Assembly (NCBI GenBank): GCA_030424665.1
Contig: JAUHWN010000009.1
Span: 1 to 54,662 of the forward strand
Origin: Bdellovibrionia bacterium
GTDB taxonomy: Bacteria; Bdellovibrionota; Bdellovibrionia; Bdellovibrionales; JAGQZY01
Reading direction: 5' to 3'
Length of the DNA: 54,662 nt
In this document: one piece after another, positions 4,339 through 23,966 of the stretch
How positions within the stretch are numbered: the stretch's first letter is position 1
Layout: every line of letters starts with the position of its first letter
Notes under the pieces: model-generated
What the model was told of the DNA's origin: nothing
What the model saw: only the letters and a program-made list of their open reading frames with translations
Databases searched by the model: none
Made by a program: the position numbers and the translations under genes

Positions 4339-4848
4339 TTAATTGATTAAGTTTTCACTGCTCGTCGGCGTAGTCGAAGCTTCGCTACTTCTGGCAGCCC
4401 AAATAGACTTTAAAGCCTCCGGATCGTCATTCCACAAATGTTTCGATTGAACGAGTTTCTCCACGAGTTTTTCGAGGGCCTCTTCCTTTTCAAGCGGATT
4501 GTCGTTGAGTAAGGCTTGTGATGATGACTCTTCTAAGAATTTAGAAGCGAGTTTGTGAGCCTGTTCTTTTCTAATTTTCTTAAATTTTTGCTTTGGAACT
4601 AGAAAATAAACAAGTTCGCAATCCATTGCCTGTGCGACTCGATCTAGATTTTTAATTGAGATTTTCCCCTCAATCTCATTTTGTTCTAGCTGATAAAGGC
4701 TCGGACTTGAGATGCCTAACCTTGCAGCAAGTTGTTTCTGAGTCATCCCCAGTATTCTTCGGAAATTTCTAATCCATGAACCGATATTTGGGATTTGTGC
4801 TTTGAGATCACGCAGCCCTTCGATTTGTTTCTTAGTATCAGTGTCCAT
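4339..4848 (-). CDS. XRE-family HTH regulator resembling 'mobile mystery protein A'
   Basis: 'IGSWIRNFRRILGMTQKQLAARLGISSPSLYQLEQNEIEGKISIKNLDRVAQAMDCELVYFLVPK' has the HTH_3 plus 'xALxCELVYxLVPK' signature of that family. Confidence 0.8.
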   Translation of the reverse strand: MDTDTKKQIEGLRDLKAQIPNIGSWIRNFRRILGMTQKQLAARLGISSPSLYQLEQNEIEGKISIKNLDRVAQAMDCELVYFLVPKQKFKKIRKEQAHKLASKFLEESSSQALLNDNPLEKEEALEKLVEKLVQSKHLWNDDPEALKSIWAARSSEASTTPTSSENLIN

Positions 4849-4931
4849 ATTCCCCTCCCCTTGGAGGTGATTAGAGTAGAGCCTTATTGAAAAATCAAGT
4901 TTTCAACAAGAATTTCATAATGTTCACTGAC

Positions 4932-6530
4932 CTAACGCATTAAGTTGTCGAGAAGAGGGCCCTTCATAGCGACGACCGAAGGCAAAGGTTTTGCGTTATT
5001 GCCTTTTGGCCAATGACTGGTGAGCTTTCCGACCTTTTGTGAGCTGGAGCCAGGGTGTTGGACCGAGAGAAAAAGAGTTTTTCCATCCTCACTAAAACAA
5101 GGCCCGGTGAGTTCACTGTCAACGGGGCCATTGGCAACGCGAATCACTTCACCTCTTTGCGGACCACTGAAGGGAATAACAAACAGAGAATTGTTGCCGA
5201 AGCTTTTCCAATGGGAACGGTTCATCAATGACTCAGATATATCACAAGTCATCCATAGGTTTCCTTTGGGGTCGAAGCAAAGGTTGTCTGGGCAAGAAAA
5301 GCCTTCCTCGAGTCCACCTTCTTTCCAGGTCGTTGCCTTAAAGGTCAGGCTGGTAAAGTCAGATTGGTCTTCTTGAAATCGCATTATAGAACCATGAAAA
5401 ACATCTTTTGTTTTATTATTCGTGCAACTTAAATAGATGTCTTTAGTAAAAGGGTGGACTTCAACATCTTCGGGGCGATCAAGAGGAGTTCCACCTGCGA
5501 GTTTGGCGGCCTTTCTTGTTTCTATAAGAAGTTGCTTTTGTTCCGAAAAATGTTTCTTTAGAATAGGGTTTTCGTGAGCATCTAATATCTCCCAGCGTCC
5601 CTTACCGATGTTGGCGACGTAGAGTTTTCCGCTTTCAAGAGAGTTGGGCCCATCGGAGATAAATTTGTAGAAGCACTCGTTAACTTTGTCATCCCCCATA
5701 TAGACAACCACTCTTCCGTCTTTGGCACGGACACAGGTGGCACTTTCATGGGCAAATCGACCAAGAGGTAAAAGCTTCTTTGCTCGAGCATTATTCAGAG
5801 GATCTATTTCTACGACCCAACCATAGTGCTCTGGAGCTTGTGGATCTACCTCTTCCCAAGAGAACTCTTTACTTTTTGATACTTTTCTAATTTTGCCTTC
5901 ATAACTAACCTCTCCATAGAAGTCCTCGTAATTTTCTTCACAGGTTAAGACCGTGTTCCATGGGGTTCTTCCTCCGGCACAATTAGCGAGAGTGCCCTTG
6001 GCCATTTTCGCCCCAAGAACCTCAGCTCCTCCAGAAAAGGGAATTGGAGTGGTACCGTCGATACGGGCGTTGAAACGACTGTCGCGAAGAACAGTCCATT
6101 GACCTGCGAGGTTCTTTATGTGGCAAATTGATCCCCCAACCATTTTTTGTTCGAGTTCCACTTGATCTTTACTTCTTGCAAAAGGATTTTTTTGGCCGAG
6201 ATTTACGAAGAAAGGGTCGATGAATTCGTGGTTGGTCCATAGTAGGGCTTCGTTTGTTTTTCCAGGAAGAGGTATAATGCAATTGTAATCACAATTAAAA
6301 CCAAAGACCTTTCCACTGCCGAGAGAATCGCCGTAACTATTCAGAATATAAAAATCGAGTTCTTTGTGAGTGACGAGTTGATCATGGGAGCTCACTTCAA
6401 GGGGAAGTATTTTCTGACTCGATAGACCTTGGCTAGCGCATCCAGGTAAGCATGTACCGAGGGCCATGCTCAAGCTTGCTCCTCCTAGAAACTCAATAAA
6501 GTCTCGTCTTTTCATCGAATCCATAGTCAC
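4932..6530 (-). CDS. PhoX/DUF839-type Tat-exported phosphatase-like protein
   Basis: Tat signal 'MKRRDFIEFLGGASLSMALG'; 'TPWNTVLTCEENYEDFYG', 'GWVVEIDPL', 'FAHESATC', 'RPEDVEVHPFTKDIYLSCTNN', 'CPDNLCFDPKGNLWMTCD' match PhoX-like proteins. Confidence 0.87.
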   Translation of the reverse strand: MTMDSMKRRDFIEFLGGASLSMALGTCLPGCASQGLSSQKILPLEVSSHDQLVTHKELDFYILNSYGDSLGSGKVFGFNCDYNCIIPLPGKTNEALLWTNHEFIDPFFVNLGQKNPFARSKDQVELEQKMVGGSICHIKNLAGQWTVLRDSRFNARIDGTTPIPFSGGAEVLGAKMAKGTLANCAGGRTPWNTVLTCEENYEDFYGEVSYEGKIRKVSKSKEFSWEEVDPQAPEHYGWVVEIDPLNNARAKKLLPLGRFAHESATCVRAKDGRVVVYMGDDKVNECFYKFISDGPNSLESGKLYVANIGKGRWEILDAHENPILKKHFSEQKQLLIETRKAAKLAGGTPLDRPEDVEVHPFTKDIYLSCTNNKTKDVFHGSIMRFQEDQSDFTSLTFKATTWKEGGLEEGFSCPDNLCFDPKGNLWMTCDISESLMNRSHWKSFGNNSLFVIPFSGPQRGEVIRVANGPVDSELTGPCFSEDGKTLFLSVQHPGSSSQKVGKLTSHWPKGNNAKPLPSVVAMKGPLLDNLMR

Positions 6531-20841: not shown

Positions 20842-21924
20842 TTGAGTATGGCCGATTGGAAATCCCGCGCTGAAATTTCAGGGGACGTAGTCTATTTTTC
20901 TTATGTTTCTAGTGGTTTAGAAGCCGCTAGTGAAGAGGTTTTTGTTTGGGACCTGGATAAGACCTATTTAGACACGAGCTTTGGAAACCTCAGGGACCTA
21001 ATGAGAACGGCTCTCGAGAAAGCTTTCCAGAAAAAGAATGTACCCGGCACGGCTACATTGGTAACGGCTCTTAAAAACTCCTATATTCAGAGAACCGGAC
21101 GAGACCGACTGCCGATCTTTTTTATTACAGCGAGTCCGCCGCAAATCGAGGGGAAGATTCGAGAAAAGTTAGAAATCGACGAGATTTTGCCCTTTGGGAG
21201 TTTCTATAAGGATAACCTTCGAAACTTAAAACCCAGTCGCCTTTGGCGTCTCACTCAGCAAATTGGCTATAAAATCCAAGCTTTGCTGCAATTACGCTTG
21301 AACCTGAATGAAAACGTCCGTCAAGTTTTATGGGGGGATGATTCAGAGTCAGATGCGATTATTTACTCCCTCTATTCGGATATTTGTGCTCGCCGCTGGT
21401 CTGAAACAGAGCTGCGCCACATTTTAAAAAACCTTCGAGTGATCGGTGGGCAGACTGAAACCATTCTTGAACTACAAGATAAAATACCTACCGGAGATCC
21501 CGTAGAGAAGGTTTATATCAACTTGGCTACAGACACTGATCCTGACTACTACATTAAATTTGGAAGGCGTCTTGTTCCTTCATATAATACCTTTCAGACG
21601 GCTCTTGATTTGTTTCAGGATGGCCGATTAAACACCGAACAGGTTCTGCGTGTCGCTCTTGATATTACAATGAACTATGGTTTTTCATTTGATGAATTAG
21701 AAAATAGTTTCGATGATCTCGTTCGAAGAAGGATTCTCGGAGCCAATAGTGTTGAAAAGATCTTACCAGCATTGAAAGAGCACGATCTTATTGCTTCAGA
21801 CTTTGAACCGAGTCTCCAGCCTGCCAAAGAAGTCTCCCGCGTTGGAAGTCGAGTTTTTGAGCTCGATGGCGAGCATGAGCCATGGGTGCCTGAGCGCATC
21901 GACTACCTTCACGACTACCGTTAA
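20842..21924 (+). CDS. APP1-type (DUF2183) phosphatidate phosphatase-like HAD protein
   Basis: 'VFVWDLDKTYLDT' HAD motif, 'PIFFITASPPQIEGKIREKL', 'VLWGDDSESDAIIYSLYSDI'. Confidence 0.72.
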   Translation: MSMADWKSRAEISGDVVYFSYVSSGLEAASEEVFVWDLDKTYLDTSFGNLRDLMRTALEKAFQKKNVPGTATLVTALKNSYIQRTGRDRLPIFFITASPPQIEGKIREKLEIDEILPFGSFYKDNLRNLKPSRLWRLTQQIGYKIQALLQLRLNLNENVRQVLWGDDSESDAIIYSLYSDICARRWSETELRHILKNLRVIGGQTETILELQDKIPTGDPVEKVYINLATDTDPDYYIKFGRRLVPSYNTFQTALDLFQDGRLNTEQVLRVALDITMNYGFSFDELENSFDDLVRRRILGANSVEKILPALKEHDLIASDFEPSLQPAKEVSRVGSRVFELDGEHEPWVPERIDYLHDYR

Positions 21925-21945
21925 TTTTTAAACTGACCCATATTT

Positions 21946-22123
21946 CTGTGTTTATGGAATGAGGAGAATCAGGTTCTAGTTGTTCCAAGTATTCTGGGAG
22001 TCCATTTTTAGGGCCGGGCTCCTGCCCTTCTTGCCTAGTGCGCATCCGGCTGGCAAGAGCCCTAAAAATGAACCCCCATAACACTTTCCACAAAGAATGA
22101 TTCTCTTCATTTCAAAAACAAAG
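21946..22123. repeat. Long imperfect inverted repeat with three-way-junction apex, inside the IS non-coding end
   Basis: Perfect 12-bp arms CATTTTTAGGGC (22003-22014)/GCCCTAAAAATG (22059-22070); outer arms CTGTGTTTATGGAATGAGGAGAATCA (21946-21971) and TGATTCTCTTCATTTCAAAAACAAAG (22098-22123), complementary apart from a few mismatches/G.T pairs; inner hairpins GGGC-tcct-GCCC (22016-22027) and CTTGCC...GGCAAG (22030-22057). Confidence 0.85.
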
Positions 22124-22148
22124 AATTCTGATTCAATTTATAAATGAA

Positions 22149-23033
22149 CTAGTGGCAGGTTGCTTTCTTTCGGCTTTTCAAGAGGAAGTTGTTGTGAAAG
22201 TAGGTGTAGATATCAAGACGATCCTGAAGGTGGTGAATTGTTTTAGATGTGCACCAGGTCCTTCTGACCAAACAACCTAAGTTATCTCGAATCATGGCAC
22301 AAGTGTGATTGAGATAAAAAAGAGGATCGAAGCCGCCTTCCTTGAGTTCGCCTTGGCCAACGACACATCCTCTTCTTCCTCGATACTGGATGTAGTCGGC
22401 TTCGGGGAAATGTCGTGTAACAGTTTTAATGTAATGGGGATTTTGGTCGGATTCGATCGTGACCGGAGGCCCTAAAACTCTTTTAAGATCATAGAAAAGT
22501 TGCTCTCTTGTTTTGTATCTTTGGTCCTTTCTTCTGCCGTATTTTTTTCGAGACCTCTTTGCAAGTATGCCTTTGGCAGGCATAGTAGATGCTCTGGCTC
22601 CCAAAATTCTTTGTGAGTACTTTTCGACGACAACCGTAATGCTTAGGGGTTTCATTTTACTGTGCTCAAAAGTTTCCATGTCATCGAAAATAATTTCTTC
22701 GGCTGACGAGCTTTGAATTAACTGTTGTCGATTTTTCTCTCTCGCCACCCTGGCTAGAAACTTAACTTTCGAAGCGACCGTATTTTTACTGATACCCAAA
22801 AGGAGGGCGATTCGTCGTTGGGAGTTCTTGCTGGCGATGAGCTTGAGGATGATAGAATTAAGATGGCGTTTATTTTGGTGTATACACTTTTGAGTTGAGG
22901 CCTTCGAAAAAGTGGTATTACAACGGGTGCAAATGAACCGTTGGATGAATTTATAGTCGGACTTCCGTTTGAAAAATCCGTGTTTTCGAATTTCGCTGTG
23001 TTGGTGAGGGCATTTCGGGCAGTATCTCTTCAT
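22149..23033 (-). CDS. Transposase with InsA-like zinc ribbon/HTH and DDE-type catalytic region
   Basis: 'CPKCPHQHSEIRKHGFFKRK...FICTRCNTTF' zinc ribbon, HTH 'RRIALLLGISKNTVASKVKFL', 'IIFDDMETFEHSKMKPLSITVVVEKYSQRILGARAS', 'VTIESDQNPHY'. Confidence 0.88.
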   Translation of the reverse strand: MKRYCPKCPHQHSEIRKHGFFKRKSDYKFIQRFICTRCNTTFSKASTQKCIHQNKRHLNSIILKLIASKNSQRRIALLLGISKNTVASKVKFLARVAREKNRQQLIQSSSAEEIIFDDMETFEHSKMKPLSITVVVEKYSQRILGARASTMPAKGILAKRSRKKYGRRKDQRYKTREQLFYDLKRVLGPPVTIESDQNPHYIKTVTRHFPEADYIQYRGRRGCVVGQGELKEGGFDPLFYLNHTCAMIRDNLGCLVRRTWCTSKTIHHLQDRLDIYTYFHNNFLLKSRKKATCH

Positions 23034-23105
23034 GGGCTAGAGATACTGCATTTAAAATACCTATTTGAGACTATCTGGGTTCCACATGAAACTGGGTCAG
23101 TTTTG

Positions 23106-23966
23106 TTAATTTTGCAGGGCCATTTGAATAGGGTATTCAACTTCTATAGGCTGGGCCTCGAAAGACTTAAACCTCGCTCTTTCAATGACCCTGAGGAGAC
23201 AAGATTGGTATTTCTTATCTTCGATTTCACTATTAACAATGTTAGCTGCGTTCACTCGACCGGACGGCTCGATAATAAAACCAAGAGTCACTTGCCCTAA
23301 TTTGACCTGACCCTTATTGCGATTGAAGTACTTAATATAACAGCGCTGGATAAATCGTCTTTGTCCAGCAATGACTTTGTCGATGTAGTCCATCGAAAGA
23401 CTGCCCTTTGGTTCCTTGGGGCGTGGGGGAAGAGTCTTAGGGGCCGTCGGCGCAGGAGCAGGGGTTGGTTGCTCTTCGACGACTTGAATTGGTGTCGGTC
23501 TCGGTGTTTCAGCGGGTAGTTTGATGTGGATGTCGGATACGGAAGTATCTCCATCAATAAATCCCGATGGACTTTGAATGAGTTCAAAAACATTTTGATC
23601 GACTTGTGTGACGAGTTTCACCTGCCCCTGAAGGACGGTCACTTCCACTTTTCTTTCTTTGACGAAATAATCAACGATCAGACGGGAGCTTTCTTTCATC
23701 TCGAGTACGGCACCAGAATTAAATTGTAATATGGCCGATCCACCTGAGCCGGTCTCCCAAGTATCGAGATCATAAATTTCACTTCGAAAATTGACTTCTT
23801 GATCCTTGAGTTGGCCCTCTCTACGAACAAAGAGTTCTTTAACAGATTTAGCCGTGTAGCCCAACGCCACCGAGCTAGGACCTTGCTCTTCATCGTTACC
23901 ATTTGGAGTTTGCAAAATGAGATAAACTCCCAGAGCCAATCCCAACAGAACGAGAATCTGCTTCAC
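23106..23966 (-). CDS. FecR-like domain protein with C-terminal AgmX/TonB-type domain
   Basis: 'GSGGSAILQFNSGAVLEMKESSRLIV' FecR-like; C-terminal 'QRCYIKYFNRNKGQVKLGQVTLGFIIEPSGRVNAANIVNSEIEDKKYQSCLLRVIERARF'. Confidence 0.78.
   Translation of the reverse strand: MKQILVLLGLALGVYLILQTPNGNDEEQGPSSVALGYTAKSVKELFVRREGQLKDQEVNFRSEIYDLDTWETGSGGSAILQFNSGAVLEMKESSRLIVDYFVKERKVEVTVLQGQVKLVTQVDQNVFELIQSPSGFIDGDTSVSDIHIKLPAETPRPTPIQVVEEQPTPAPAPTAPKTLPPRPKEPKGSLSMDYIDKVIAGQRRFIQRCYIKYFNRNKGQVKLGQVTLGFIIEPSGRVNAANIVNSEIEDKKYQSCLLRVIERARFKSFEAQPIEVEYPIQMALQN

Follow-up and report, generated by a model that had tools for sequence, protein, structure and literature searches.

The window of this study, a stretch of 54,662 nucleotides from a Bdellovibrionia bacterium (contig JAUHWN010000009.1), carries on its minus strand an IS1-like insertion sequence (IS) whose 3' end, downstream of the transposase gene, is one long hairpin. 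A sequence-only reading had described this segment as a self-complementary element of ~178 nt. The features of the locus are the following:

21929..23104, minus strand: IS1-like insertion sequence, 1,176 bp, with terminal repeats (T)AAACTGACCC at each end and a 9-bp duplication outside; its ends match those of other copies
21920..21928, no strand: target-site duplication GTTAATTTT, left copy, outside the IS end
23105..23113, no strand: target-site duplication GTTAATTTT, right copy, outside the IS end
22149..23033, minus strand: IS1-like transposase, 294 aa, a single frame; best profile IS1 (NF033558)
21929..22140, minus strand (transposase sense): whole hairpin element, the IS 3' end, from folding
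21929..21971, minus strand: outer 3' arm including the IS terminal repeat, paired with 22098-22140
22098..22140, minus strand: outer 5' arm, which repeats the IS end in inverted orientation next to the stop codon, from folding; almost the same sequence as the outer arm in copy L048
21974..22098, minus strand: conserved core matched by covariance models R2 and R3 (112.2 bits with R3; 94.7% mean identity among 15 IS copies over roughly this interval)
22003..22070, minus strand: inner stem 22003-22014/22059-22070 with the enclosed tip, from folding
22030..22057, minus strand: 5' tip hairpin with stem 22030-22035/22052-22057 and a loop containing CGGAT, from folding
22016..22027, minus strand: 3' tip hairpin P4, GGGC-AGGA-GCCC, with a CsrA-type loop

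The IS resembles the IS1 family in its transposase and in the 9-bp target duplication on either flank, members of that family having one of about 9 bp. It differs in that the transposase, a single 294-aa frame, scores only 54.6 bits against NF033558 and thus stays below the NCBIfam cut-off of 100, and in its structured 3' end of ~210 nt, which is absent from most relatives. Indeed, in most of the transposase relatives that we fetched (~35-51% identity) the 3' end is either short or without structure. D117, D196 and D236 do not vary across 60 aligned transposases, and the motif region near residue 243 reads N-H or N-Q. A plasmid search with the transposase as query gave no matches.

Fold and conservation of the hairpin

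The transposase-sense strand of 21929-22140 folds into a single hairpin with a two-hairpin tip at -95.6 kcal/mol (z -9.4). The opposite strand reaches -85.3 kcal/mol (z -9.0), and none of 200 shuffles was as stable as the fold of either strand, so that the element passes the comparison with shuffled controls that had been proposed as a check. All pairings named in the sequence-only reading are present in the fold: the outer arms 21946-21971/22098-22123, the segment 21995-22000/22073-22078, the perfect 12-bp stem 22003-22014/22059-22070 and, at the tip, the hairpins GGGC-tcct-GCCC (plus-strand letters) and CTTGCC/GGCAAG. The segment is indeed self-complementary, but its extent had been set too short. 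The actual hairpin is longer because the terminal inverted repeat, which forms its base, pairs with its own inverted copy next to the stop codon; it thereby extends from position 21929, the end of the IS, up to 22140, which leaves 8 nt between it and the transposase stop. As already pointed out in that reading, no T-run follows the hairpin on either strand, unlike in an intrinsic terminator, where one comes after a G+C-rich hairpin. A possible pseudoknot of the conserved CCUCC with the GGAG loop, inspected by eye, showed no co-change.

We then compared the copies of this IS in the genome of the window (G000) and in a genus-mate (G001), 16 of which have a readable 3' end. The hairpin is kept in all 16, with z values from -8 to -17. 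Identity among 15 copies is 95.7% in the apical core, which equals that at codon position 2 of the transposase gene (95.8%) and clearly exceeds that at codon position 3 (77%) and in the 5' non-coding end (67%). In each of the 16 copies the sense strand is more stable than the antisense strand, and the sense folds together contain 126 G.U pairs, compared to 40 in the antisense folds. The identity of the core together with the better folding of the sense strand points to selection on a non-coding sequence that is read as RNA in the transposase sense.

The outer arms deserve more caution. In copy L048 (G001) the two arms are almost identical to one another, and L051 (G001) is a hybrid-looking copy with partly converted arms. 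These copies suggest that template switching in the palindrome also homogenises the arms, and arm pairing is for this reason weaker evidence than the core. One partial IS copy (L015, G000:C38, ~4800-5086) has lost the hairpin core and retained the outer arms. We also considered that the hairpin might move as a miniature inverted-repeat transposable element, and rejected this since every hairpin match in G000 and G001 adjoins the transposase or a contig end.

A dispersed family of structured elements

For searches beyond these copies we used three covariance models: R2, built from the core of the window element itself, R3, re-estimated from diverse R2 hits, and R1, which describes a sister type. 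The core alignment is model-based, as MAFFT misaligned the variants. R2/R3 match relatives in 50 of the 141 genomes of the order, spread over 27 of its 66 genera; outside of the order, such relatives occur in four families of the same phylum (f17, f21, f23 and f26). Three genomes of the order that gave no R3 matches still gave none at E <= 1. Most of the relatives are stand-alone and have no such transposase nearby. The element had been presented as a feature of the IS; it is part of the IS here, but it is not specific to it, the fold being mostly dispersed across the phylum without an IS.

The sister type was found at the end of two IS whose transposases share ~36% identity with that of the window (L093, L096), and it also occurs stand-alone. 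R1 matches are present in 29 of the 141 genomes, mainly in genus g16, with up to at least 26 in one genome, while G000 and G001 have none; the window element is linked to the sister type via R2/R3 and a common motif, not via R1. A long stem whose sequence is free and a tip that closes with GAG-[stem-NGGA-stem]-CG are common to the two types, and we take them as one superfamily on the basis of motif and layout rather than a formal test. Among 43 distinct sister copies 97.3% of the cells are paired, two-sided changes occur at 35 of the 36 pairs and none of 500 shuffles did as well, counts that lean towards structure because the alignment was fitted to it. On the sense strand, G.U outnumbers A.C by 46 to 7 in the sister family and by 77 to 25 in the long stem. 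The conservation check asked for by the sequence-only reading does not speak against the fold, with the hairpin in all readable copies and compensatory changes in relatives. Among its suggestions, that of an IS-encoded structured RNA gains support from the conserved core, these compensatory changes and the predominance of G.U over A.C in the transposase-sense orientation.

No Rfam 15 family scores above its gathering threshold at the elements, and we found neither this family nor any comparable dispersed or transposon-borne family of CsrA targets in Rfam 15 or in the open-access papers that we searched. The hairpin family of Bdellovibrionota is thus apparently undescribed. Another IS with the same transposase family (L059, G016) carries GGCC-ATGGAT-GGCC in a 3' structure of another kind (z -3.9), where rsmX matches below threshold (27.2 bits; gathering 56).

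Stand-alone elements are intergenic, prefer gene 3' ends and form inverted dimers, in all of which the window copy differs. Three genomes, G028, G031 (3,782,950 bp) and G017 (3,988,594 bp), we take to be B. bacteriovorus, with G031 presumably HD100 and G017 presumably Tiberius. At the three loci examined in them, inverted element pairs lie between convergent genes, and at three loci G063 has the same genes adjacent without an element, that is, empty sites. An origin of the arms by inverted target duplication at insertion is unsupported, as no leftover arm is seen at the empty sites. Inverted pairs of the sister type (L201, L202 and L205 in G028; L141, L144, L149) are frequent between convergent genes, with 5' ends facing and ~110-400 nt apart. 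Over both families, rough open reading frame calls give 51 convergent, 50 tandem and 18 divergent gene contexts.

GGA loops and a possible link to CsrA

In all 81 non-redundant R3-type elements the P4 loop contains GGA, mostly as AGGA, AGGAN, ANGGA or ANGGAN, so that the loop length varies; the P4 stems vary as well (GGGC/GCCC, GGAC/GTCC, GGCC/GGCC, GCCC/GGGC and others). All 43 sister elements have at least one GGA tip loop, and another hairpin loop of the same elements is without such a motif. The tip in the window shows two GGA loops (AGGA and CGGAT), and 54 of the 81 R3 elements hold a further GGA inside P2. Such loops recall the high-affinity site of CsrA/RsmE, which is ANGGAX on a stem with variable N and X; dropping N lowers the affinity (PMC4005645). 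G000 has one CsrA, as has each of the 51 checked relatives that are at least 90% complete, and the three CsrA proteins that we read keep the HREE stretch. Three elements (L133, L136, L256) carry extra GGA-loop hairpins within a tip loop (AAAATAGC-AGGAT-GCTATTTT, GGGC-AGGA-GCCC), which look as if sites had been added stepwise.

We favour, with moderate confidence, the explanation that the segment belongs to a large dispersed family of structured RNAs that bind CsrA, and was captured by the IS as its 3' untranslated end. The fold and the family are well supported, while transcription, CsrA binding and an effect of the elements are what we infer from them. The element would be transcribed together with the transposase gene and form the untranslated 3' portion of its mRNA, where the long stem would stabilise or protect the mRNA end and display the tip, whose GGA loop or loops would bind CsrA. 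Bound CsrA could then act on the transposase mRNA or be titrated by the summed copies of the element. In this genus, a member of the family would then have ended up as the untranslated 3' portion of an IS1-like element. More tentatively, Bdellovibrionota may possess a CsrA-titration network, or one of 3' untranslated regions addressed by CsrA, made of mobile structured RNA elements and recruited by an IS as its 3' end.

Several observations weigh against the favoured explanation. The P4 loop of the window, AGGA, has neither N nor X, and weaker binding is expected of it (PMC4005645); in the sister family a tip loop sometimes reads ACGAN in place of GGA. The invariance of GGA is partly selected for because the models include the loop, a bias that may be only partial, the loop being four positions and a small share of scores of 46-112 bits. 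No sense bias is apparent where elements lie between tandem genes. Finally, of the reported attack-phase small RNAs (sRNAs) of HD100 only one overlaps a listed element. This is APsRNA6, a transcript at 1,338,787-1,339,441 on the plus strand (PMC3627812), which, if the coordinates of G031 equal those of the paper, crosses the first element of a pair antisense and has its annotated end inside the second, sense-oriented one. In G031 the same interval covers a 92-aa reading frame and then an element, and APsRNA6 is therefore possibly a small mRNA with the element in its 3' region.

The kinds of components are already known, namely CsrA-type hairpins, REP-like dispersal and IS-derived RNAs; the family and the combination are apparently not. 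CsrA/RsmA-binding sRNAs such as CsrB and RsmX/Y/Z likewise expose GGA in hairpin loops on variable stems. CsrB and RsmZ carry several GGA sites per RNA. The elements, compared to CsrB and RsmX/Y/Z, have a long stem with one or two tip GGA loops, exist in many dispersed copies and can be IS-borne, and they have no Rfam match save the sub-threshold rsmX on L059. A small RNA derived from IS200 tnpA is also a structured RNA from an IS transcript, and the authors who described it suggest a test of CsrA as its partner (PMC12594629); it comes from the 5' end of the transcript, whereas the window element is a 3' end and has stand-alone relatives. From the same phylum, merRNA and the attack-phase sRNAs of B. 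bacteriovorus are structured RNAs too (PMC3627812), but none of their listed coordinates falls on an element of our set, with the exception of APsRNA6 and the one pair that it crosses.

What the analysis adds is an apparently undescribed structured RNA family that is present in many genera of a predatory phylum and carries a loop of the kind read by a global regulator. If CsrA binds, tens of dispersed elements could adjust the expression of genes in Bdellovibrio, and the IS would be coupled to a host regulator via its 3' end. Cultured B. bacteriovorus allows the idea to be tested directly.

Other possible roles for the hairpin

The main alternative, though not a likely one, is that the hairpin works like repetitive extragenic palindromes (REP) and bacterial interspersed mosaic elements (BIME), as a very stable structure at gene ends that dampens transcription arriving from either side and shields the 3' ends of mRNAs, GGA being meant for a different protein. 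Within the IS, its effect would be to insulate the transposase gene and the genes next to it. The read-through barrier considered in the sequence-only reading survives as this rival, which is partly compatible with CsrA binding. The inverted pairs between convergent genes with their empty sites, the distribution of gene contexts and the annotated end of APsRNA6 in the second element of a pair all fit such a role, and published REPs, which are likewise dispersed intergenic palindromes close to the 3' ends of genes, occur preferentially in convergent and unidirectional gaps and can be dimeric (PMC3733652). It leaves unexplained, however, why GGA stays constant while stem and loop length vary; the missing T-run and the several elements between divergent genes also speak against it. 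In form, a REP is a palindrome of 20-40 bp, whereas the elements measure ~110-220 nt and have a conserved branched tip on a stem whose sequence is not conserved. Their flank motif is not constant by eye, unlike the GTAG and CGTC tags of the REP superfamilies, so that they do not qualify as tagged short palindromes, and no REP-associated tyrosine transposase was seen with them. The REP survey makes no mention of Bdellovibrio (PMC3733652).

It is improbable that the hairpin acts as DNA, folding into a cruciform or a single-strand hairpin to which the transposase or a host protein would bind when the DNA is transposed or replicated. The inclusion of the terminal repeat in the stem would suit this, as would the arms that appear homogenised within L048 and L051, as by template switching in palindromes. 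A role at the DNA level is made less likely by the strand bias towards G.U over A.C; moreover, most members of this transposase family lack the hairpin and most elements lack such a transposase nearby.

We consider it very improbable that the hairpin is a passive palindrome without function, kept perfect by template-switch repair. The arms do vary freely and yet remain paired, but conservation lies in the core rather than in the arms, and throughout the phylum the tip loop is invariant. A guide RNA of the omega or bridge type, for which the location at an IS end and the strong structure might plead, can hardly be credited and was rejected, in line with the earlier view that such a role would be unexpected, since the transposase is IS1-like (best profile IS1, not a TnpB/IscB or IS110-type partner), its relatives exist without any structured 3' end and the fold lies mostly away from it.

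A cyclic di-GMP-I riboswitch (L177, 1790-1871, minus strand), which scores 66.5 bits and thus above gathering, is located ~150 nt away from one of the elements.
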